From a virus, in the IMG/VR virus record IMGVR_UViG_3300044844_000506, positions 1 through 64,000 of that record: 64,000 nt of DNA; one strand, 5' to 3'. Both the position numbers and the translations under genes were made by a program. The notes under the pieces are model-generated. The model did no database searches, was not told the DNA's origin, and was given only the letters and a program-made list of their open reading frames with translations. Every line of letters begins with the position of its first letter. Within the stretch, counting starts at the first letter, position 1. Positions 1-57,864 of the stretch are shown piece after piece.

Positions 1-127
1 ACTAATAATCGAACTAATAATCGAACTAATAATCGAACTAATAATCGAACTAATAATCGAACTAATAATCGAACTAATAATCGAACTAATAATCGAACTA
101 ATAATCGAACTAATAATCGAACTAATA
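1..127. repeat. 12-bp tandem repeat array (ACTAATAATCGA)
   Basis: The unit ACTAATAATCGA runs head to tail from the first base: ten full identical copies plus seven bases of an eleventh, after which the pattern decays at ACTAATAGTTGG. The array touches the window edge, so its full length is unknown. No reading frame or spacer structure is present, so it is not a CRISPR. Such perfect AT-rich iteration next to a gene-free stretch could be an origin or terminus element; that function is inference. Confidence 0.95.
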
Positions 128-6980: not shown

Positions 6981-7423
6981 ACTTTGATGAGTTGATCCTC
7001 AATGTTCTTGTAGGATTCAGAGTTGAAAACAGTTAACAAATTATGATCCATCAGATATACAATTTCAGCGTGCGGTTTATCAAAGCTAGAAGTCCTAGCT
7101 TGAATACCAACTACCATACCTTTACCACCATTTGTATAGGTCACATAATTAACTACAGAGTTATTCGAGATTAAGTCCCAAGCCAATCTCTGGATACAGT
7201 AAACGATACCTGTGCGCTTACAGAACTGATCTTCTGGCATACAGATTGCGTTATAAATTCTCGGCATTGGGGATTTATCAGATACTGCCGAAATGACAGT
7301 AATTCCTCCCCCCGTCGAAAATTTAGAACTGTTGCGGATATGCTTTACTTGAATAATGTAATTATAGACCTTAACTTTCCGCTCATCGGTAAGGTCATAA
7401 TGGTAATTAATTGTTAGGTTCAT
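6977..7423 (-). CDS. Hypothetical protein
   Basis: 148 residues from ATG 7423 (MNLTINYHYDLTDERK), overlapping the upstream gene by 17 bases; the frame continues to 7513 but inside that gene. Beta-rich with a Gly-rich turn FSTGGGITVISAV, whose GGG-GGA codons come from a poly-G motif at 7308-7313, and a second GGKGMVVGIQ turn. No known family. Confidence 0.6.
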   Translation of the reverse strand: MNLTINYHYDLTDERKVKVYNYIIQVKHIRNSSKFSTGGGITVISAVSDKSPMPRIYNAICMPEDQFCKRTGIVYCIQRLAWDLISNNSVVNYVTYTNGGKGMVVGIQARTSSFDKPHAEIVYLMDHNLLTVFNSESYKNIEDQLIKV

Positions 7424-7973
7424 AGTCGATATAGGTGTGAATGGAGGACTGAAGCTCCAATAAAATCTTACGCAACTTTGGGACTGAAATCTTAGTTCTA
7501 CGCTGTAGAGCAAGTAAATTTAACCTGCCCCCATCTGTGAACACATCATCATAAGTTAAAATAGCCTTGGCAACGATTCCTAAGTCTGTATTTGGAAATC
7601 TATCAACCAAGGATACAAACTCTAGGTTCTCTAAATCTGAGTAGCTATTATCTGGGACATCAAAGTCCCGATCCTCACTATCATTCAGAGAGCTAACTTG
7701 ATTAAGTCTTTTGGAATTGATGTTGGCTCCAGCCATGTTCTTATAAGTAAAGATCCACTGCTTGACCCAACCATCATACTTAGAAATAAACTCCTTGACT
7801 GTGGGAACATTCTCTTGAGTCATATACTTCGGAAGGAAATGAAGTACATAAGCCCAAATTGAATTGACATAATCTTCTGGGGACTGCGACTTGTCCCCAG
7901 AGATTCGCAACGCAGTATAGTAAACTAAATTACCATACTTATCTTGCAGGAGTTTAAAATCCTCTTCGGTCAT
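7407..7973 (-). CDS. Sigma-70-like / HTH protein (tentative)
   Basis: 188 residues starting in a TAATG overlap with the upstream stop (7973). The layout recalls a small sigma factor: an N-terminal helical part with YGNLVYYTALRISGD and EDYVNSIWAYVLHFLP (region 2-like, about residues 12-50), a WVKQWIFTYKNMAG helix near 75, an acidic linker, and a C-terminal helix-turn-helix-like LLALQRRTKISVPKLRKILLEL (about 152-173). I read this as a possible phage sigma or sigma-like regulator. The match is by pattern only and is weaker than for the factors at 39174 and 51827. Confidence 0.45.
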   Translation of the reverse strand: MTEEDFKLLQDKYGNLVYYTALRISGDKSQSPEDYVNSIWAYVLHFLPKYMTQENVPTVKEFISKYDGWVKQWIFTYKNMAGANINSKRLNQVSSLNDSEDRDFDVPDNSYSDLENLEFVSLVDRFPNTDLGIVAKAILTYDDVFTDGGRLNLLALQRRTKISVPKLRKILLELQSSIHTYIDYEPNN

Positions 7974-11428: not shown

Positions 11429-11504
11429 TGGTGAGACTGGAGGGGATCGAACCCTCGACCAAAAGATTAAAAGTCTTTTGCTCTACCAACTGAGCTACAG
11501 TCTC
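11429..11504 (-). tRNA. tRNA-Lys (UUU)
   Basis: Full cloverleaf on the minus strand: acceptor GAGACTG/CAGTCTC, D arm with GTAGCTCAGTTGGTAGAGC, anticodon loop CTTTTAA in stem AAAGA/TCTTT, T arm GAGGGTTCGATCCCCTC (with GGTTCGA), discriminator A and encoded CCA. 76 nt. Reads AAA/AAG, frequent codons in this AT-rich genome. Confidence 0.95.
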
Positions 11505-11513
11505 ATTTTGTAT

Positions 11514-11590
11514 TGGTATCCCCAACTGGACTTGAACCAGTAACCAACAGATTAGAAATCTGTTGCTCTATCCAATTGAGCTATGGGGAC
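11514..11590 (-). tRNA. tRNA-Arg (UCU)
   Basis: Acceptor GTCCCCA/TGGGGAT, D arm TAGCTCAATTGGATAGAGC, anticodon loop TTTCTAA in stem ACAGA/TCTGT, T loop GGTTCAAGTCC, CCA encoded. 77 nt. Reads AGA, an AT-rich arginine codon heavily used by the phage genes here. Confidence 0.95.
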
Positions 11591-11595
11591 TTGTT

Positions 11596-11745
11596 TCAGA
11601 TCCCTACGTTTAAAGGGATGATTTCCCAACGCACATTCTTAAATTCGTGCTTTTCTGCGAAAGACTCAGCACTCAACTCAGAATAAAATGGTCCATAAGC
11701 ACGATGACCAGTCTGAGGATCTCCGATAATAAGAATGTATTGCAT
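11596..11745 (-). CDS. Small conserved phage protein
   Basis: 49 residues from ATG 11745 (MQYILIIGDPQTGHRAYGPF), lying between two tRNA genes; a longer frame would run into the tRNA-Leu gene. It belongs to a type of small phage protein with a Gly-Asp-Pro turn, a YGPF strand and a C-terminal W-x-I-x-PL. Role unknown. Confidence 0.65.
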   Translation of the reverse strand: MQYILIIGDPQTGHRAYGPFYSELSAESFAEKHEFKNVRWEIIPLNVGI

Positions 11746-11754
11746 AGGATTGTT

Positions 11755-11840
11755 TGGTAGTCTTGGTGGGAATCGAACCCACACGAACAATGTTCTTCAG
11801 ATTTTAAGTCTGATGCGTCTGCCAATTCCGCCACAAGACC
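11755..11840 (-). tRNA. tRNA-Leu (UAA)
   Basis: 86 nt with a long variable arm: acceptor GGTCTTG/CAAGACT, D arm TGGCGGAATTGGCAGACGC, anticodon loop CTTAAAA in stem TCAGA/TCTGA, variable stem GAACATTGTTC, T arm GTGGGTTCGATTCCCAC, encoded CCA. Reads UUA. Confidence 0.95.
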
Positions 11841-24573: not shown

Positions 24574-24648
24574 TGGCTCCTCGGGTAGGACTCGAACCTA
24601 CAACCAATCGGTTAACAGCCGATTGCTCTACCATTGAGCTACCGAGGA
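24574..24648 (-). tRNA. tRNA-Asn (GUU)
   Basis: Acceptor TCCTCGG/CCGAGGA, D arm TAGCTCAATGGTAGAGC, anticodon loop CTGTTAA in stem ATCGG/CCGAT, T arm GTAGGTTCGAGTCCTAC, discriminator G, encoded CCA. 75 nt. Confidence 0.95.
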
Positions 24649-25225: not shown

Positions 25226-25356
25226 GTTTTCTCCTGCACTATGTCCTCTTCACCATAGCCATCGCCATAGCCAGAGCCAGAGCCAGAGCCATAGCCAGAG
25301 CCAGAGCCATAGCCATAGCCAGAGCCATAGCCAGAGCCAGAGCCATCACGGCTCAT
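25222..25356 (-). CDS. Gly-Tyr-Ser repeat protein 2
   Basis: 44 residues: MSRDG, then alternating Gly with Ser, Tyr or Asp (GSGSGYGSGYGYGSGSG pattern), then a conserved tail EEDIVQEK. GAGGAC before ATG 25356 is the ribosome site. The repeat uses only GGC for Gly and TCT, TAT or GAT for the other residue, so it is a GGCTMT-type DNA repeat prone to slippage. Twin of 25368-25547. Low-complexity, probably disordered; could be sticky or phase-separating. Function unknown. Confidence 0.65.
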   Translation of the reverse strand: MSRDGSGSGYGSGYGYGSGSGYGSGSGSGYGDGYGEEDIVQEKT

Positions 25357-25367
25357 TTGTCCTCTAA

Positions 25368-25547
25368 TCAATTGCTCTTGCATTGCACTATGTCCTCTTT
25401 ACCATCGCCATAGCCATAGCCATCGCCATAGCCATAGCCATAGCCATCGCCATCGCCATAGCCAGAGCCATAGCTAGAGCCATAGCCATAGCCATAACCA
25501 TAGCCATAGCCAGAGCCAGAGCCAGAGCCAGAGCCTTTACGGCTCAT
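25368..25547 (-). CDS. Gly-Tyr-Ser repeat protein 1
   Basis: 59 residues from ATG 25547, after CGAGGCC. Same design as its twin downstream: MSRKG, a 40-residue alternating Gly-X block with X being Ser, Tyr or Asp, and a tail KEDIVQCKSN. The two share start context, repeat and tail, so they arose by duplication, with different repeat lengths. The longer frame to 25583 would overlap the DUF6948 gene. Confidence 0.65.
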   Translation of the reverse strand: MSRKGSGSGSGSGYGYGYGYGYGSSYGSGYGDGDGYGYGYGDGYGYGDGKEDIVQCKSN

Positions 25548-25965: not shown

Positions 25966-26042
25966 TGGTCCGCCTATTAGGATTTGAACCTACATCTGAG
26001 GCTTATAAGACCCCTGCTCTAACCAGATTGAGCTATAAGCGG
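25966..26042 (-). tRNA. tRNA-Ile (UAU)
   Basis: Acceptor CCGCTTA/TAGGCGG, D arm TAGCTCAATCTGGTTAGAGC, anticodon loop CTTATAA in stem GGGGT/GCCTC (two G-U), T arm GTAGGTTCAAATCCTA, encoded CCA. 77 nt. UAU reads AUA directly, unusual in bacteria, which mostly use a modified CAU anticodon. Suits an AT-rich phage. Confidence 0.9.
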
Positions 26043-39173: not shown

Positions 39174-39527
39174 ATGGCGCAGTATATAGACAATAAAAGG
39201 TTTGAGTTTTTAGTTAGTTCTTACATATATGAAAGAACTGACAAAATCGAGGCAGAGCTTATAGAAAATCTGGACAAGCTGATAGATAATATCTTCTTGT
39301 CCTTTAATTTTAAGATAGACCACGAAGATGCGAAGCAAGATTGTTATTTGTTAATCTTCCGCGTAATGCGGAACTTTAAACCAGAAAACGGTAGTGCGTT
39401 TAATTACTTCACTACCGTTATCGTAAACAATCTAAGGTTACTGTACACTAAGAATAAAATCTATGCACAGAAACTAGAAAACTACATGAATATAAAATCC
39501 AACGATAAAGATTTACTTACAAGTTGA
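39174..39527 (+). CDS. 55: gp55-like late sigma factor
   Basis: 117 residues, one of only two plus-strand genes here. DHEDAKQDCYLLIFRVMRNFKPENG, in part, and FNYFTTVIVNNLRLLYTKNK match the region 2 segment of T4 gp55 (aromatic-Pro-Glu-x3, then Phe-x-Tyr-Phe-Thr-x-Ile-Ile). The rest is helical and short, lacking regions 1, 3 and 4, as in gp55. It directs RNA polymerase to TATAAATA late promoters, of which several are present. It converges on a thioredoxin-like gene by 15 bases and diverges from the UDG/exo gene across a 14-base spacer. Confidence 0.8.
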   Translation: MAQYIDNKRFEFLVSSYIYERTDKIEAELIENLDKLIDNIFLSFNFKIDHEDAKQDCYLLIFRVMRNFKPENGSAFNYFTTVIVNNLRLLYTKNKIYAQKLENYMNIKSNDKDLLTS

Positions 39528-49592: not shown

Positions 49593-51128
49593 TTAGACTA
49601 AGTTACCAATTGTCTTTCTGAAAGGCTGGTAGAGGTAGTTGCTGCTGGGACCGATGATTCTAAGAATTCTATAGAACTTAGCTTCGGGAGCGATTGCTAA
49701 CATACCGTAACGAGTCATGATACCCTTACGAGGTTGGAATGTAGCAGGATCAACTACTGTGGGGAGGTTCTCAATTGGGATGTAAGGAGCGTAAACGAAT
49801 CCTGTATCCATTGGACCAGAACCCTTATAACCCATGAGGATTTCGTCTTCGGGCCAGAGTGGGTCGATGTAAAGATCGAACTTACCACCGAGCTTGCCCT
49901 TGAACTGAATCTGAGTACCCATGTTTGATGGACCTTCAACCTTGGAACCACCATTACCACCCATACCACCACCGAGTTGAGCGGCAGTTTCGAGCATTGC
50001 ACCAATGAGTGGTGAGGTAACAATCCAAGTACCAGGACCACGATGAGTGGTCTTGAAGATGTCCTGTGACATGAGATTTAATGTTGCCCACATATTCGAC
50101 CAAACATGACCGATGTGTTGTGGGCTAAAAGGTATTGCTGAAGATGTGAAGTCAATTACCCATACGTTCGTACCTGCACCTGAGGGGTTAGTTACACCAG
50201 TGATACCACCAGTGGTATTGTTGTAATCCCACATGAACTTAGCAGGATTGAAGGTATCTGCACCACCAGTGTTGCCGATTGACTGGCTATTAGCTAAGTC
50301 TAGTGCATTTCTGTACCAACCACCTAAGCCGTTAGCAATGTTGCTATCGTAAGCAATACCACGGAGGTTTTCGAGAAGCTCACGGTCGATTTCGAGACGG
50401 AGTTCGTTACCCATGAGTTCAGTGAGTTCCTGTTCAAGATCAAGGTTGTGATAAGCCTTGAGATCCTGTGAAGCCTCAATTGTCCAGAGGGTACGCATCT
50501 TACGGGTACGAGCAACAACTGGCTGCTGTTCGATTGTAAGGTTTACTTCTGGAATAGCTGAACCTGAGAGGAATTCACCTGCTGAAATGCTGAAACCATG
50601 AGTTCTATCTGTTAGAGGCCAAGCAGCAATCTTACCACCGAATGTGGTCGAGGCTGAACCTCTTGTAGCACCATAAATAGTGCTCAATTGAACGTCATCA
50701 TCACCATCGGCACTATTAGCACCTACTGGGTTAGTTGTTAAACCACCGTAGGTTAACTGGTACTTGCTATAGACACCTTCTCTTGCTACACCGTATTGAC
50801 GGCCAGAGCCAAGGTAGAATACCTGACCAACTGGACCCTGCATGGGCTGCTGAGAAACTATTGCGTTTGCAATTAGCTGAGGGTAAACTCTACGGATTAG
50901 AGGGAATGCAAACTTCTGGAAGGTTCCAATTGAACCTGTTGAAGTTGCACCTTCAAAACCTGCTACGTTAGTTTCATCAATTCTCTTTGACTTCTCAAGA
51001 AGAATTGCCTTTGCTTGGTTCTCATAAAGAGTAGCTACGACTTTGCGAGTGTAAGAGTCATCAATGCCTTTTAATGCGGCACCCCACTTACCTACAAGGT
51101 CTTCGCCATTTTCAATTAATTCGCTCAT
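49593..51128 (-). CDS. 23: Major capsid protein (gp23-like)
   Basis: 511 residues. IGTFQKFAFPLIRRVYPQLIAN, QPMQGPVGQVFYLG, MGNELRLEIDRELLENLR, RGPGTWIVTSP and MTRYGMLAIAPEAKFYRILRI are T4 gp23 hallmarks. The N-terminal ~60 residues (with AILLEKS near 37-43) are the likely segment removed by the prohead protease; cut sites LLE or IDE. AGGATAAAAAATT precedes ATG. Followed by a terminator. Confidence 0.95.
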   Translation of the reverse strand: MSELIENGEDLVGKWGAALKGIDDSYTRKVVATLYENQAKAILLEKSKRIDETNVAGFEGATSTGSIGTFQKFAFPLIRRVYPQLIANAIVSQQPMQGPVGQVFYLGSGRQYGVAREGVYSKYQLTYGGLTTNPVGANSADGDDDVQLSTIYGATRGSASTTFGGKIAAWPLTDRTHGFSISAGEFLSGSAIPEVNLTIEQQPVVARTRKMRTLWTIEASQDLKAYHNLDLEQELTELMGNELRLEIDRELLENLRGIAYDSNIANGLGGWYRNALDLANSQSIGNTGGADTFNPAKFMWDYNNTTGGITGVTNPSGAGTNVWVIDFTSSAIPFSPQHIGHVWSNMWATLNLMSQDIFKTTHRGPGTWIVTSPLIGAMLETAAQLGGGMGGNGGSKVEGPSNMGTQIQFKGKLGGKFDLYIDPLWPEDEILMGYKGSGPMDTGFVYAPYIPIENLPTVVDPATFQPRKGIMTRYGMLAIAPEAKFYRILRIIGPSSNYLYQPFRKTIGNLV

Positions 51129-51139
51129 AATTTTTTATC

Positions 51140-51766
51140 CTATTTATTAGGCATCAATGCCATTACATTCTCGTTGAGGAATGGATTAGAACGATCTAAT
51201 CCGAATTGTTCATCCTTAATTTGTTCCTCTGCAAGAATTAAGGCTTTTTCACTGGACTTAAACGGTCTTCGTGTATCGAGAAGTTCCTCAACTTGCTCAG
51301 TTAAAGGAACTAATTGTTCTTCTAAAGTTGAGGCAGTCTTCTTGTACTTACCTGCTAACTTTCTGTACTTTTCTAATTCTGGAACTAAATTATTTAATTG
51401 TTCAATTAAAATCTGATTTTCTTCAATGAGAGAATCTATCTGCTCATTTACTTCAGCTTCAGCTTCTAACTCTTGGTCATCTAATTCAATAGAATCTTCT
51501 AATCCTAATAAAGACTTAAGTTTACGGAATTGAGCAGCATCTCTGTGGAGATCACTTTCGTCCTCTAATTCCTTCTCAGCTTGTTCTTTTAATAGGTCTA
51601 TGTTGCCTCTAATAAAAGCTACTGTTTTAGCTTCTAATAGTTTTACTCTTTGTGTTACTTCCTCATTAATAAAACCTGAAATGAGGGTAGCTATTTCGTC
51701 TAAGCTATCCTCACTTAAATTATCGGGAAGAAGATCACTTAATTTATCTAATTTATTTGCGTTCAT
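51140..51766 (-). CDS. 22: Prohead scaffold protein (gp22-like)
   Basis: 208 residues, acidic, helical and coiled-coil (LIEENQILIEQLNNLVPELEKY, in part, and TLEEQLVPLTEQVEELLD). The C-terminal SNPFLNENVMALMPNK and the N-terminal DLLPDNLSEDSLDEIATLI fit T4-like core proteins that the prohead protease degrades. Placed between protease region and capsid gene, as in T4. Confidence 0.82.
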   Translation of the reverse strand: MNANKLDKLSDLLPDNLSEDSLDEIATLISGFINEEVTQRVKLLEAKTVAFIRGNIDLLKEQAEKELEDESDLHRDAAQFRKLKSLLGLEDSIELDDQELEAEAEVNEQIDSLIEENQILIEQLNNLVPELEKYRKLAGKYKKTASTLEEQLVPLTEQVEELLDTRRPFKSSEKALILAEEQIKDEQFGLDRSNPFLNENVMALMPNK

Positions 51767-51826: not shown

Positions 51827-52849
51827 TTAAGAGTCTTCAAATTCACTAAGATGACCTCTTAACTGTTGTAAACTTCGATGTAACGATTGCCTAACTGTAT
51901 CAGGATTACTATTTAAAACTTTTGCTATTTGTATTGTATCATACCCTTTTAAATAATATAATTTAACTATGTTTTGTTGTGTTGGATTTAGTCTTGAGAT
52001 AGCTTTACCCAATTTAGCTCTAACTTCTGATCCAGCTATTCCAGAAGATGGATCTTCATATTCTTTAGGTCCAGAAATAGTAGATCCAAATTCTTTTTCA
52101 GTACCTGCTATAGGAGCATTTAATGAGCCTCCCTCTTTAGATCTAGCTCTTTTTTCTTGTGTATGATATCGTAAAGCATCTCCTACTCTAGCGTTTATAA
52201 TTTTAGATAAAAATCTAGGAAAAGATTCAACATTAAAATCTAGTTTTTCTAAATTTTGAAACCCTTCTTCAAATGCTTGTTGAACTATATCTTCAGCAGA
52301 TACCTTTGATTGAAGACTACCTAACCTACTTCTAGCAAATGCAATTAACTTTTTACTATGTTTATTAAATAGTTTATTAGTTGAATCTTCATCGCCTAAG
52401 CTGTGAGCCTGAAGTAATTCATGATCTTCTTTGTCATGAGGAACATTTCTTTGTGCCGCTTTAGCAGCTTCTTTATCAGCTATTGCTTTTTTAACTACCT
52501 TTTCTGGAATGTCTTCAGATGGTGTTTCTGATTTAGGTTTTACTTTTTTAGGTGGAAGTTCTAATGGTACTTTCCAGTAGTCATCACTTTTATCTTTTTG
52601 ATCTTCTGATTTCGGCTCTTTTTGTTCTGGCTTCTTAATTACTGGGGTAGCTGTAGGTTTTTCAACTTTAGGAGTAACTTTAGGTTCTTTAGTCTTTGGA
52701 GTAGGTTTTTTAGAAACAATCTTAGGTTTTTCTTTTTTAGGTAGAGGTTCTATTGGTTCTTCAATATCTTCTCCCTCATCTTCTTCAAGAAGAAACTCTT
52801 GAATTAAATGAATTGAATTTTCGTCTAAGATATTTTTAAAACTAATCAT
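51827..52849 (-). CDS. Sigma-70-like factor with capsid-targeting-like leader
   Basis: 340 residues in three parts. Residues 1-22 (MISFKNILDENSIHLIQEFL then LE) look like a capsid-targeting sequence ending at Leu-Leu-Glu. Residues 23-140 are a disordered Pro/Lys/Glu linker. Residues 142-232 are sigma region 2 (AEDIVQQAFEEGFQNLEK, PRFLSKIINARVGDALRYH) and 275-335 region 4 (LNPTQQNIVKLYYLKGYDTI, then QIAKVLNSNPDTVRQSLHRSL). The gene lies between protease and scaffold, one base from the protease gene. It could be packaged and ejected to reprogramme host RNA polymerase, or have a role late in infection. The sigma fold is clear; the packaging is inference. Confidence 0.85.
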   Translation of the reverse strand: MISFKNILDENSIHLIQEFLLEEDEGEDIEEPIEPLPKKEKPKIVSKKPTPKTKEPKVTPKVEKPTATPVIKKPEQKEPKSEDQKDKSDDYWKVPLELPPKKVKPKSETPSEDIPEKVVKKAIADKEAAKAAQRNVPHDKEDHELLQAHSLGDEDSTNKLFNKHSKKLIAFARSRLGSLQSKVSAEDIVQQAFEEGFQNLEKLDFNVESFPRFLSKIINARVGDALRYHTQEKRARSKEGGSLNAPIAGTEKEFGSTISGPKEYEDPSSGIAGSEVRAKLGKAISRLNPTQQNIVKLYYLKGYDTIQIAKVLNSNPDTVRQSLHRSLQQLRGHLSEFEDS

Positions 52850-52850
52850 A

Positions 52851-54017
52851 CTAACAATTCCACTTTCTTAAAGCCTTGTTAATTCTGCTGTTAGGATCAT
52901 TGGCTGTTTTTGATGAGGTACGACTTCTTTTCATTCCACCCATACGAGCGCAGAATGATTTACGTCTCTTAGCAGATTTGCTGCCCTTTTTTAATTTAGA
53001 TGGATCTGTAGTTACAGCAGTCTTTAATTTAGAACCAGGATTAGCTCTGCGGTATGCTTCAACTCCTTTTTGAGTTAAACCACCAGCTCTGCTTTTATGT
53101 ACACCCATTTTCATTTTGGGCATTACACCTTTACCTTCTACTAAAATGTTTTTTATGAGTTTGGTATAGGCTTCTACTAAATCTGCTTTAGATTTAACAT
53201 CCATTACACATCTTTCAAATTTTTTAGGATCTCTTCCTTTACCAAGAGAAGCATTACACACTGCCCAAGGGTTTACTTTAGATGTGCGTTTAGCTTCATT
53301 AACAGGTTTACTAGGAACACAATTAGGTACTTTTCTCTTACCCTTCATCTTCATACCTACTTGCTGATATCCTTTCCAGCAAGGATCTTTCTTTTCAAAG
53401 ATTTTAGAGATTCTATCATCCTTAACTGTATTTAATCTGGATTCAAGTAAGTTTAGTAATACCTTATTATTTAATGCAGCCTTTTTTGTTTTTTCTAGTA
53501 ACACAGACTCATTTACTTGAGATGGATGAGCACCTCTTGTTGAAGGATCCGCAACTAAATCAAATGTTACCGCACGGAAATCTTCATTAACTTCAAATTT
53601 GCCTGGAGAATCTTGACATGGCTTTAATGATCCAAGACCTCTACTGGAAACACCAATTCGTACTCCGTCCTTAATTAACTGTTGAGCTACTTTACCAGCA
53701 GGAGTATTTAATAGTTGAGATTCCCCTATTAAAACATCTCCTTGCCAGTATAGCTTAGTTACCATGTGTGATGCGTTAGTTAATTTAACTGTTGGACTAT
53801 CTGGGTGATCTAATTCACCTAAAAGTCTATTTTCAGTTACTAATGGCATTAATCTGGTAACTTCTCTTTCTAAAATTGGTTTTGGGTAGCGTCTGTTATT
53901 CTTATTGAATTCTCCAGCACGACCAAAGATACCTCTAATCTTAATAGTACCAGACTCTGTAGACTCTGATATTACTTGAACTGGATCTAATCTAAAGTAA
54001 TCAATAAGTAATTCCAT
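52851..54017 (-). CDS. 21: Prohead protease (gp21-like) with C-terminal basic modules
   Basis: 388 residues. Residues 1-190 are the T4 gp21 serine protease: NRRYPKPILEREV, LLGELDHPDSPT (His71), IGVSSRGLGS (Ser124/125) and VTFDLVADPSTRGAHPSQV. The rest is unusual: DPCWKGYQQVGMKMKGKRKVPNC, a WAVCNASLGKGRDPKKFERCV module, LIKNILVEGKG (an LVE cut site) and a DUF6321-like end (GGLTQKGVEAYRRANPGSKL ... FCARMGGM ... INKALRKWNC). Elsewhere these basic modules occur as separate phage proteins. They may be released by self-cleavage and stay in the head. Confidence 0.88.
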   Translation of the reverse strand: MELLIDYFRLDPVQVISESTESGTIKIRGIFGRAGEFNKNNRRYPKPILEREVTRLMPLVTENRLLGELDHPDSPTVKLTNASHMVTKLYWQGDVLIGESQLLNTPAGKVAQQLIKDGVRIGVSSRGLGSLKPCQDSPGKFEVNEDFRAVTFDLVADPSTRGAHPSQVNESVLLEKTKKAALNNKVLLNLLESRLNTVKDDRISKIFEKKDPCWKGYQQVGMKMKGKRKVPNCVPSKPVNEAKRTSKVNPWAVCNASLGKGRDPKKFERCVMDVKSKADLVEAYTKLIKNILVEGKGVMPKMKMGVHKSRAGGLTQKGVEAYRRANPGSKLKTAVTTDPSKLKKGSKSAKRRKSFCARMGGMKRSRTSSKTANDPNSRINKALRKWNC

Positions 54018-54045: not shown

Positions 54046-54288
54046 TTATGCACCATAAAATGGTCTGCGTCTAATTGTAGCTCCAGTCGGACCTTTTTTT
54101 GGATTTCCTTCTATAAATTTCTGAAATGCAGAAGGCTTTGGAGATTGTGGTTTTTTAGGTTTATCTCCTTTTTTATGATGTGGTAATGATGCAAATTCTC
54201 CTTTACCAGATCTAGGATCGTCTGAAGGATAATTAGCTTCAGCTAAAAGTAAATCATAAATATAGTCAAAATAATTTATTTTATTCAT
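54046..54288 (-). CDS. Small basic protein with capsid-targeting-like leader
   Basis: 80 residues: MNKINYFDYIYDLLLAEANY leader (site LAE), then Pro/Lys/Gly-rich, disordered sequence (HKKGDKPKKPQSPKPS) ending in basic Arg-Arg-Arg. Fits an internal head protein of the set around the protease gene. Inference from pattern. Confidence 0.6.
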   Translation of the reverse strand: MNKINYFDYIYDLLLAEANYPSDDPRSGKGEFASLPHHKKGDKPKKPQSPKPSAFQKFIEGNPKKGPTGATIRRRPFYGA

Positions 54289-54317
54289 AGGTTAACTTTC
54301 CCAAAGTAATTCTATAA

Positions 54318-55349
54318 TTATTCCTCCCAAGATTCTTCTTTATCTTTCTTGGCTCTCTCTCTTTCCATTTCTGATTGATAAGCCGCAGTAAGTTCAGCAG
54401 ATTTCCCACCTTTAGCCTTAGCAGCAGCCGCTATTTCTTTAGATCGTAAATCTTGTAAAGCACGCTTTTTACGATCTCTTTCTGCTTGTTTTATAGCAGC
54501 GACGCCAGTTTTCTTGGGTTTTACTTTAGAAGAAACTACTTTACCATGTTTGTCTATTTCAATTGGAGTCATTCCACCTGATGCACTTAGTTTATGACCT
54601 AACTGCTTTTCAGCAGACGATAGTCTCTTTCTTCTTGATTCCAATGCCTTCTTTCGTCTACTTAATCTTGTTTCAGCCTCTTTTTCCATTTTAGGAAACT
54701 CTGAGGGACTGGCTTCTCTATAAGCCTGTCTAGCTTTTTTAAGTTCTTGTGCTTTTGCAGCTAAATCACCTTTAGCTCTAGCTGTTCCAGCACCTTTTTC
54801 TCCAGGTTTTAATAACTTATCTTCTGTAGCTTCCTTATGTGCTTTTAATGCATCTCTTAATCTTTGTCTTGTTTTTTCAGATGCAGAAGAATATGCGTCT
54901 ATTCTAGCTTTTCTACCTGCTGCTACTGCCTCTCGTCTCTTACGTCTTAATGATCCCTTCTTAGCTTTAGGATCAGAAGCTAATTTTGTTTTAGCTTCTT
55001 CTGCCTTAGATTTTTTAGACTGGTATTCCTCTCGTTTTTTTCTAATTGCTCTTAATTTAGCTTGCTCTCTTGATAGTTTTCTTTCGTGACCAGATACTCT
55101 TCTAGTAGATAGTCTAAGACCTTTTTCTACTTCTGACTCATAGGTATCCTCTGTTTGTCTTGGTTTTTTATATGATTGTTCACTTTCTTTTTGAGATAGA
55201 GGTTTATCTTTTTTTAAAGCCTCTGCTGCTTTTATATTATGTTTACGTCTTTCTGATCTTACTCCAAACTGTTTTTCTTTAATTGCATCTATCTCTTTTT
55301 GACTAAGTTCTAAAAGTAAAGAAGCAATGCTATTATATGTATTGTTCAT
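54318..55349 (-). CDS. Lys/Arg/Ala-rich internal-head-type protein
   Basis: 343 residues. Leader MNNTYNSIASLLLELSQKE with site LLE, then an extremely charged helical body (SREQAKLRAIRKKREEYQSK, KAKEAKTKL-type repeats). Very basic, histone-like composition, suited to neutralising packaged DNA. Leader matches residues 199-216 of the protein encoded upstream at 55747-56625. No enzymatic motif. Confidence 0.65.
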   Translation of the reverse strand: MNNTYNSIASLLLELSQKEIDAIKEKQFGVRSERRKHNIKAAEALKKDKPLSQKESEQSYKKPRQTEDTYESEVEKGLRLSTRRVSGHERKLSREQAKLRAIRKKREEYQSKKSKAEEAKTKLASDPKAKKGSLRRKRREAVAAGRKARIDAYSSASEKTRQRLRDALKAHKEATEDKLLKPGEKGAGTARAKGDLAAKAQELKKARQAYREASPSEFPKMEKEAETRLSRRKKALESRRKRLSSAEKQLGHKLSASGGMTPIEIDKHGKVVSSKVKPKKTGVAAIKQAERDRKKRALQDLRSKEIAAAAKAKGGKSAELTAAYQSEMERERAKKDKEESWEE

Positions 55350-55351
55350 GT

Positions 55352-55741
55352 TTAATAACCTTTTCTAGTTATTTTTTTCTTTTTAGCTTTAACTTTAGGA
55401 GTTCCTCCCATATTAGTTCCGATACTCCCGCAAGTGGTCATTTCATCAATAAGGTTTTTAGCTTCTTGAATTAAATGCATTAACTTTTTAACGTATACTT
55501 CAGGATTAACTGTCTGATTGGATTCTCTTACGACAGGAGAAACTTTTTTAGTTGTCTTCTCACCAAATGAATGTTCTAATATAGTATTAGTATACGAATG
55601 AGGAACTGTTACCTTAGATATATCAGGAGCATTAGGTCTTATAATACCTTGGGGAGTCGAAACAAGTTTTCCTTGTTTCGACTCACTTTTAAGTATTGAT
55701 TCTGCTATATTAGCTATATCAAAATCTTTTTGCTTAGGCAT
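55352..55741 (-). CDS. Head-region protein of unknown function
   Basis: 129 residues: MPKQKDFDIANIAESILKSE leader, a middle with ISKVTVPHSYTNTILEHSFG that resembles a conserved segment of T4-like head-core genes, a helix (VKKLMHLIQEAKNLIDEM), and a Lys-rich end (VKAKKKKITRKGY). Probably a prohead core component. Assignment by place and composition. Confidence 0.6.
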   Translation of the reverse strand: MPKQKDFDIANIAESILKSESKQGKLVSTPQGIIRPNAPDISKVTVPHSYTNTILEHSFGEKTTKKVSPVVRESNQTVNPEVYVKKLMHLIQEAKNLIDEMTTCGSIGTNMGGTPKVKAKKKKITRKGY

Positions 55742-55746
55742 AAAAA

Positions 55747-56625
55747 TTATCTTCGTGTAACTGGAGAAGCTCCAGTCATTAGATTTTTAAGAGTTCCGTG
55801 TAATCCACCTAAGTTAACCTTTGCTAATGCTTTAGATCTTTGTGGATTACTATGTTGACCAAATTCACTTACACCTTTTTTAAATTTAGGAGAAATGGCT
55901 CCACCTATTTTAGCTGCAACACCAGCGAGTTTACTTCCGCCATGACGAGCAGCGCCGACTCTTCTACCAGCTTTTTCCATAGCACTAACTTCAACTAGTA
56001 AATGAGCAATTTGTACATATGTCTCGTTCATTGGTTCGCCTTCTATTTCATTGTGTGTAAATCTCATGCCAACTCTCTTATATCTTTCTTCGGTTGCTTT
56101 ACGTTTTTCTGGATCAATAAAAGTTTGTGCTTTTTGTCCTGGAGCCGTCTGCTTTTTAAAATAACCTAAAGCTGTATTTTGCTTCTTACCCTTACTTTTT
56201 GTGATTTGAGCCTGTGTTGGTTGTGAACTCAATGTACCTGCTCTACCATGCATTAATCTATTTGTTTGGCGAGCTTTTAATAGGTCAGCATATGCTTTAT
56301 TTCTGCCTTTCTCATCTTTACCTCTTACAGCTTTACCATAAGCCTTAACAGCTTCACCGTGCTTCATTTTTGCACCTTTTTGTAACTGCGCTTGTTTCCA
56401 TTGGCCTCCCTTAGATCTTAAGGCAGAACCAATCTTCTTCATTCCCCCACCAACCATACCCTTTAATGCGGTTAAAAACTCTTGTAATAATTCCTCGTCT
56501 TCTAAGAGAATAGGAATGAGTTCTTGCTGGTGATCAAGAGGAACACCTTCTTCTGTGAGAAGAGCACTTAAATTTCTTTTCTCTTCTTCTAATAGAAGAG
56601 ATTCTTTAATTATGGAATAATACAT
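55747..56625 (-). CDS. Internal-head-type protein with two leader-like segments
   Basis: 292 residues. MYYSIIKESLLLEEEKRN at the start and a second leader-like segment MNETYVQIAHLLVEVSAMEK at residues 199-218. The body between is Lys/Gln/Gly-rich and disordered; the end is basic and Gly/Ala-rich. Looks like two internal-head proteins fused, or one gene with an internal start at 56031 (AAGG eight bases before it) giving a 94-residue second product. LLE and LVE cut sites would allow protease processing. Confidence 0.65.
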   Translation of the reverse strand: MYYSIIKESLLLEEEKRNLSALLTEEGVPLDHQQELIPILLEDEELLQEFLTALKGMVGGGMKKIGSALRSKGGQWKQAQLQKGAKMKHGEAVKAYGKAVRGKDEKGRNKAYADLLKARQTNRLMHGRAGTLSSQPTQAQITKSKGKKQNTALGYFKKQTAPGQKAQTFIDPEKRKATEERYKRVGMRFTHNEIEGEPMNETYVQIAHLLVEVSAMEKAGRRVGAARHGGSKLAGVAAKIGGAISPKFKKGVSEFGQHSNPQRSKALAKVNLGGLHGTLKNLMTGASPVTRR

Positions 56626-56631
56626 GGGGTA

Positions 56632-56985
56632 TTACTCCTCGTCTTCGTCTTCAGATTCTTCGTCGTACTCTTCTTCGTCGTACTCTTCACCATCGTCTTC
56701 TGATTCTTCTTCTGATTCTTCATCTGAATCGTCTTCTTCAGACTCTTCTAATGATTCATTTAGAGTATCTTCAACAGCAGTGAATACTTCTAACATAGCT
56801 GCGCTGTGCTCTAATAAAGCCTCTTCGCTGATTGGTTCAGCGAGATTTGATTGGCATAGAGGACAAACATGAGCTTCTGTTACGGGAGCCTGATCTGAGC
56901 ATTCAGTTAATGCGTCTTTTTCAGTGGGTAGCCAGCTTGCACCCTCAGTAATAGCCTTTACATAATTTTTAGAAACGTGTGACAT
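56632..56985 (-). CDS. Acidic prohead core protein (gp67-like, tentative)
   Basis: 117 residues. N-terminal KNYVKAITEGASWLP with an ITE site, a CPLC pair (near residues 41-44), then a strongly acidic tail of Glu/Asp/Ser repeats (about residues 80-117). T4 gp67 is also a small, highly acidic core protein near gp20-gp21. AAGGAG is the ribosome site and a TCTAAATA box lies upstream. First gene of the head block. Confidence 0.55.
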   Translation of the reverse strand: MSHVSKNYVKAITEGASWLPTEKDALTECSDQAPVTEAHVCPLCQSNLAEPISEEALLEHSAAMLEVFTAVEDTLNESLEESEEDDSDEESEEESEDDGEEYDEEEYDEESEDEDEE

Positions 56986-57066: not shown

Positions 57067-57864
57067 TTAAGTACAGTCAAATGATCGTATAGTACCACCT
57101 TGGTTGCCAAAATAAATAGGTCTTGATGCTGTACTTAAATAAAATGTTACTATTGTAGGACGTTCAAAGTATTCAGAAACGTAATTATTAACTGTAATAA
57201 CATGAACACTACTTAAATAAAAGTTAGTTACATCCCCAGTTAAAGTTATAACTCCAGTATTTAAATCTATTTTATATGGATAGGGGAAAGGGGGATCAAC
57301 ACTCATTATTTTAGGTATAGTTTCATCTTTAATGTCTTTTCCAGTATCTTCCTCTTTAATTGGAGTATAGTATTCTGGAACTACTGCTAATCTTCCAACA
57401 GAAGATAGCCATGATTCGACATAAATTTTATTACAAGTTTGATATGTAATTAAATCAAGACTGTTAAGTTTATAATCTAAAACAGGAAGTCCAACGGTAT
57501 AACCGATAGTGTTTTCAGGATCTTGTATATCTGTATATGCGTTAGCAGATTGACTCTGAGATACGGATACACCTTCATCTATCAATACATCTGTAGATCC
57601 ATTATCACCTACATCTCCACATGAGATTTTATCTCCGTCTCTATGAATCCCTTTTCCATTAGCAAAAACTGTAGTAGATCCACCTAACACTGGACCCATT
57701 TGATGACAAGCTGGACCACAACAATGAGTTTGACCATAATTATCATCTATTCTAACAACAGGCTTATCATTAACAAAAACGTCTGGGGAACCATTTACTG
57801 AGAATGTTGGAGAGTAGCAGTGTCCCTGAGACACATCAGTTAAAGCTCTTATTGGTCTTGGCAT
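57067..57864 (-). CDS. PAAR-type baseplate spike-tip protein
   Basis: 265 residues. N-terminal ~100 are a PAAR repeat domain: SQGHCYSPTFSVNGSPDVFVND, HCCGPACHQMGPVLGGSTTVFANGK and GDKISCGDVGDNGSTDVLID show the Cys/His positions that hold a metal at the spike tip (T4 gp5.4 role). The remaining ~165 residues are a beta-rich extension with a Ca-binding-like VITLTGDVTN segment and end in Asp-Cys-Thr. Sharpens the puncturing tip at the tail base. Overlaps the next gene by one base. Confidence 0.82.
   Translation of the reverse strand: MPRPIRALTDVSQGHCYSPTFSVNGSPDVFVNDKPVVRIDDNYGQTHCCGPACHQMGPVLGGSTTVFANGKGIHRDGDKISCGDVGDNGSTDVLIDEGVSVSQSQSANAYTDIQDPENTIGYTVGLPVLDYKLNSLDLITYQTCNKIYVESWLSSVGRLAVVPEYYTPIKEEDTGKDIKDETIPKIMSVDPPFPYPYKIDLNTGVITLTGDVTNFYLSSVHVITVNNYVSEYFERPTIVTFYLSTASRPIYFGNQGGTIRSFDCT

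Follow-up and report, generated by a model that had tools for sequence, protein, structure and literature searches.

An ECF-like sigma factor gene within a T4-type head operon: candidate cargo of a phage head

To bring transcription under their control, phages are known to deliver into the cell either complete RNA polymerases or enzymes that modify the host polymerase. The Alt ADP-ribosyltransferase of T4 is a described example of a packaged host polymerase modifier (PMC5780444). According to the T4 annotation, Alt is packaged and enters the cell together with the DNA, and its leader, MELITELFDE, has hydrophobic residues at positions 4, 7 and 8 and a glutamate at position 10; the corresponding leaders in the T4 record are MKTYQEFIAE in IPII and IPIII and MAKINELLRE in gp24. 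In the case of the internal protein IPIII, the first 10 residues suffice for targeting; residues 4 and 7 matter for targeting and residues 8 and 10 in processing. Cleavage by the T4 protease takes place after L/I-x-E (PMC9026906). The T-even internal proteins vary widely around the conserved capsid-targeting sequence (PMC3012670); IPI, IPII and IPIII have diverse bodies, and their mature forms lack [L/I]xE motifs. Virion RNA polymerases such as the N4 vRNAP and the phiKZ-type enzymes are carried in the particle and start the early genes (PMC4496689, PMC7824862).

Sigma factors are also encoded by phages. T4 possesses the late sigma factor gp55, whose type consists of region 2 only, and a family of proteins annotated as 'sigma-W' (PHROG 1740) is found in crAss-like phages. 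The earlier note on this locus stated that no phage-packaged sigma factor is known to have been described. This holds in so far as no proposal of a head-targeted sigma factor was found in the literature, a search that covered subscription journals thinly and is weak evidence. It has to be qualified for the sigma factor RS_157, which LC-MS/MS revealed in particles purified from the Twort-like phage fRuSau02; the authors judge that it was co-isolated with the polymerase and is not structural, and neither a leader nor prohead cleavage was proposed (PMC5618024).

The window analysed here, 64 kb long, is the start of an IMG/VR virus record of 111,612 bases and contains a T4-like head module on the minus strand, in which a series of small proteins (56985 to 54046) is followed by a protease, a sigma factor, a gp22-like protein and gp23. 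The protease (52851..54017) is a gp21-type prohead serine protease of the Peptidase_S77 family with a C-terminal DUF6321 domain (Pfam 9.6e-25 and 4.4e-17, respectively), and its stop is separated by 1 base from the start of the downstream sigma gene (51827..52849). The sigma gene precedes the gp22-like scaffold gene (51140..51766) by 60 bases, which is followed by the gene for the major capsid protein gp23 (49593..51128; Pfam Gp23, 5.3e-72). Coordinates and Pfam matches thus agree with the arrangement reported earlier, in which the sigma gene lies one base from the protease and before scaffold and capsid. The gp22 name is assigned by position since the product has no family match; its sequence is coiled-coil-like and contains 10 [L/I]xE sites in residues 31-208. 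In our reading, the sigma factor is probably a packaged, protease-trimmed head cargo, which would be ejected with the DNA to steer the host polymerase.

The sigma gene encodes a protein of 340 amino acids. The assignment as a sigma-70-like protein with regions 2 and 4 was borne out, as both Pfam models score above their curated cut-offs: Sigma70_r2 (PF04542; 1.4e-8, 34.8 bits, cut-off 24) covers residues 160-229 and Sigma70_r4_2 (PF08281; 3.5e-10, 39.8 bits, cut-off 25.7) residues 279-330. Region 3 is absent; a linker joins regions 2 and 4, and the AlphaFold model contains two domains only, which are helical and span residues about 137-239 (region 2) and about 273-335 (region 4). Residues 1-115 are disordered in the model, in good agreement with the roughly 120 disordered residues claimed before, and the stretch from the leader to about residue 115 is rich in P, K and E. 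The protein matches PHROG 1740 'RNA polymerase sigma factor' (2.6e-19) and, by sequence, solved ECF sigma factors. The best Foldseek matches in the PDB are the ECF sigma factors SigW, AlgU and E. coli sigma-E; their TM-scores are low because the placement of the domains is loose in the model, of which 115 residues are disordered. Judged by sequence and model, the product is an ECF-like sigma factor, for which polymerase binding and promoter choice are predicted. A chance open reading frame or misread frame is ruled out by the strong domain matches across the whole core. Another open reading frame, 7407-7973, looked sigma-like by eye, but Pfam gave nothing convincing.

The first 32 residues, MISFKNILDENSIHLIQEFLLEEDEGEDIEEP (52754..52849, minus strand), form a putative capsid-targeting leader. 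The start MISFKNILDE fits the T4 IPIII register with F4, I7, L8 and E10, and no other of the 129 predicted phage proteins shows this exact register. [L/I]xE motifs end at Glu10, 18, 22, 23 and 31; these five motifs in residues 1-32 are the highest count among the 129 predicted proteins, followed by the head-module gene at 55747 with four, while the 119 non-head proteins have three or fewer. The count exceeds that of whole-protein shuffles (p = 5e-5) and of shuffles of residues 2-32 (p = 0.02). Furthermore, the pattern hydrophobic-x-x-hydrophobic-[IL]-x-E occurs twice within the first 26 residues (ending at E10 and E22), which is the case for none of the 119 non-head proteins; it occurs once in four of these and in 3 of 6 neighbouring cargos, an enrichment that was calculated with the sigma factor left out (Fisher p 0.002). 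The leader quoted in the earlier note is thus present, and its T4 register and motif content lie above chance; the p-values are optimistic because several of the tests were chosen after the sequence had been seen, whereas the T4 register derives from independent published mutational work. A cut after Leu21-Glu22 had been suggested. A motif does end at Glu22, but this is one of five candidate positions, and a cut at Glu10 would be no less likely. The residues following the candidate cuts are Asn or acidic instead of the usual Ala, Gly or Ser, which counts against the head-cargo reading.

Leader profiles trained by EM on 142 non-redundant head ORFs of relatives, a set that mixes families and from which the sigma factor was left out, did not single out the sigma leader beyond its composition (shuffle p 0.1-0.4, and 0.63 for the start-anchored profile). 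With the 14-residue profile from the mixed-family training, the sigma factor ranked 20th of 129 (shuffle p 0.37), with the start-anchored one 44th (p 0.63), and with core-only profiles 6th to 9th, where composition shuffles gave p 0.1-0.2.

If the sigma factor has to withstand the prohead protease, its folded part should be devoid of cleavage sites. Beyond the leader, it has sites only at Glu116, where the disordered linker ends, and at Glu336, five residues from the end; no [L/I]xE site is present in the folded core (residues 117-335). Taken alone, this depletion of the body is not significant (1 observed vs 2.6 expected, p 0.22). A homologue in a related contig, L172, has sites at residues 12 and 23 and none thereafter (expected 3.2, p 0.026), and four leader-less homologues from crAss phages have 2-4 sites each in the core. 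In T4, the internal proteins possess no site after residue 20, and 14 sites are present in the scaffold gp22, which the protease destroys. The sparing of sites would fit survival of the sigma body in the prohead and is taken as supportive only.

The homologue comes from the relative with the most similar capsid, contig 3300017766_003430 (L085 = L172 = L231), whose gp23 and gp22 are 91% and 81% identical to those of the window. Its sigma factor occupies the same slot between protease and scaffold, but is only 28-30% identical, has 258 amino acids and contains a different, acidic linker. Such fast divergence next to conserved head proteins fits T-even-type internal proteins (PMC3012670). The L172 protein begins with a hydrophobic leader, MNYLAYVKELSEVEAHLNSLLIE, the start of which resembles the common cargo leader of other relatives, MNYIQRIYDLLVEA; the L172 leader alone is not significant, nor is the ungapped likeness of the two sigma leaders from the initiator methionine (p 0.07-0.16). 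Since this independent contig has the same slot and operon, contamination or an assembly chimera is ruled out. In the next relative (L165 = L086, gp23 81%), the slot holds a basic, leader-bearing protein, MTNSFGQILVYESLGLSHLLE, with the start MTNSFGQILVYESLGLSHLLEAKK, and no sigma factor was found in the 44-kb contig. Among the ORFs that occupy the slot in relatives and their other large head-module ORFs, Pfam recognised no enzyme.

Among 117 loci covering protease and capsid, some of which come from the same contig, no further sigma factor was found; that only two such genes are known counts against the head-cargo reading. When viral contigs were scanned with either sigma factor or with the alignment of both, a single contig came up; a scan of bacterial and archaeal genomes returned no relatives, and a tblastn search of phage records with the window protein produced no match at 1e-3. 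With the sigma domain alone, distant sigma factors of 22-27% identity were retrieved from phage records. Among cultured or assembled phages, the crAss-like 'sigma-W' proteins are closest in sequence (22-25% identical), and they are the nearest family of the sigma domains. These differ from the window protein in that they start directly at region 2, have no leader, carry sites in the core and, in those annotated neighbourhoods that were viewed, do not lie next to a prohead protease.

The neighbours of the sigma factor carry the same kind of leader, as had been noted before. All are encoded on the minus strand: a small head protein with a T4-register motif (54046..54288; MNKINYFDYIYDLLLAE followed by Ala), a basic head protein (54318..55349; MNNTYNSIASLLLE followed by Leu) with no [L/I]xE site in residues 31-343 (3.6 expected), a protein of a family conserved across relatives (55352..55741; FDIANIAE followed by Ser), a head protein (55747..56625) that has MYYSIIKESLLLE as its leader and another one, MNETYVQIAHLLVE, inside the chain, and an acidic head-module protein (56632..56985; NYVKAITE followed by Gly). 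In the window (54046-56985) as in loci L165, L167, L171 and L098, the head module as a whole is a row of small proteins whose leaders precede fast-changing bodies. Two leaders are present in some chains, such as 55747-56625 with MNETYVQIAHLLVE in its interior, as though cargos were fusing and splitting.

According to the mechanism that we propose, the ECF-like sigma factor would be made late, together with the capsid proteins. Its N-terminal leader would draw it into the prohead core, where the scaffold core would capture it, and the adjacent gp21-type protease would trim it after at least one L/I-x-E site (Glu10, or Glu18, 22, 23 or 31). The trimmed protein would then leave the head with the DNA and, in the new host, join the core RNA polymerase at once, thereby directing it to phage promoters. 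From the sequence we infer packaging, cleavage and ejection of the sigma factor, promoter choice and polymerase takeover. Transport into the next cell, as with Alt and the N4 vRNAP, would make sense of a factor that is made together with the late capsid proteins although its use lies early. It counts against the proposal that no target promoter was found: the T4 late promoter TATAAATA showed no excess, and upstream of operon-first genes no new bipartite or short motifs exceeded shuffles. The removable leader may in addition hold the sigma factor inactive in the producing cell. In Bacillus, pro-sigma-E and pro-sigma-K are activated by the loss of N-terminal pro-sequences of about 20-30 residues. 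By analogy, the phage protein might be a packaged pro-sigma factor, which is silenced by its leader, armed by the prohead protease and, once injected, seizes the polymerase before any phage gene is expressed; this extension is possible but doubtful.

The sigma factor could instead be an ordinary phage sigma factor in a late operon that acts late or very late in the producing cell, its extension being regulatory or functionless and no packaging tag. Sigma factors at work in the course of infection are common among phages, with T4 gp55 and the factors of group 2 jumbo phages (PMC7824862) as examples, the ECF-like sigma factors of the crAss group show no sign of packaging, and the leader profiles rank the window protein 6th to 44th of 129 (shuffle p 0.1-0.63). 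However, the phage already possesses a conserved late sigma factor. A gp55-like gene at 39174..39527 (plus strand) encodes a protein of 117 amino acids with region 2 only; the assignment is made at the family level, with 8 of 9 members matching PHROG 234 'late sigma transcription factor' and all 9 matching PF04542, while the window's own copy alone matches weakly (E 0.012, below cut-off). The gene is 48-59% identical to genes in the partial records of 8 of 12 relatives, and it is kept in relatives that lack the head sigma factor. The head sigma factor itself is not gp55, as it has region 4, matches PHROG 1740 and is encoded separately from the gp55-like gene. Because the gp55-like protein exists separately, the head sigma factor is not needed for the late-sigma role; it is also dispensable for late transcription in the relatives that lack it, as these retain the same head module. 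Action in the producing cell further leaves unexplained the leader statistics and the exchange of the slot with other leader-bearing proteins, and we consider it unlikely.

Two further readings were considered. The protein may be an internal one that is packaged and uses its sigma fold to bind or condense DNA, with no role in transcription. The module's further cargos with a leader are basic, of low complexity and probably DNA-associated, and region 4 is a helix-turn-helix domain; yet both region 4 and region 2, the part that binds core polymerase, are intact and match curated models, and condensation would not require region 2, which makes this quite improbable. The leader might also be chiefly a pro-sequence, such that the prohead protease activates the sigma factor and reports head maturation within the producing cell, no delivery being involved. 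The pro-sigma factors of Bacillus offer a parallel and the protease gene is only 1 base away, but prohead proteases act inside proheads, so that access to the protease already implies capture by the head. We know of no precedent for activation of a sigma factor by a prohead protease in the producing cell, and this reading is very unlikely.

If the sigma factor is indeed delivered with the DNA, the injected protein would represent a third and more economical route to polymerase takeover, in which one small protein redirects the host enzyme from the start. Like Alt, it would act in taking over the polymerase; however, Alt is a polymerase-modifying enzyme of unrelated sequence, whereas the window protein would replace the specificity subunit and its packaging is predicted. 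The N4 and phiKZ-type virion polymerases follow the same strategy but bring the whole enzyme, whereas the sigma factor would bring only a specificity factor for the host enzyme. The T4 internal proteins share the leader register of the sigma factor; their genes lie outside the capsid operon and none has a sigma fold. It would further follow that a T4-type head-targeting leader can sit on regulators, and that the capsid operon has a cargo slot, which is filled with different proteins in relatives.

Several other features were observed in the record. Outside the head module, a protein of 423 amino acids at G000 109261-110532 (plus strand; L084:7261-8532) has a start that resembles a capsid-targeting sequence, MFYNLKYLLIE followed by Gly, and continues with a very basic stretch; no Pfam family was found for it, and it is a second candidate for a packaged protein. 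The DUF6321 domain is joined to the C-terminus of the protease (52851-54017) behind a leader-like stretch, LVEAYTKLIKNILVEG, and is a separate protein in the relatives L172, L165 and L104. It has hundreds of matches in viral contigs and, in some cyanophages, is part of a protein with a structural annotation; it could be a basic domain that binds DNA and is packaged. A gene for a PAAR-repeat spike protein (57067-57864, minus strand) lies immediately upstream of the head module, and its place is kept in relatives; the gp55-like protein (39174-39527), conserved in the clade, is minimal and very short for a sigma factor. The record opens with a perfect 12-bp tandem repeat, ACTAATAATCGA, in 10.6 copies (window 1-127), and at 25253-25535 a 6-bp unit is repeated about 45 times in an array. 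Five tRNA genes for Lys, Arg, Leu, Asn and Ile(tat) are found at 11429-11840, 24574-24648 and 25966-26042 (-).
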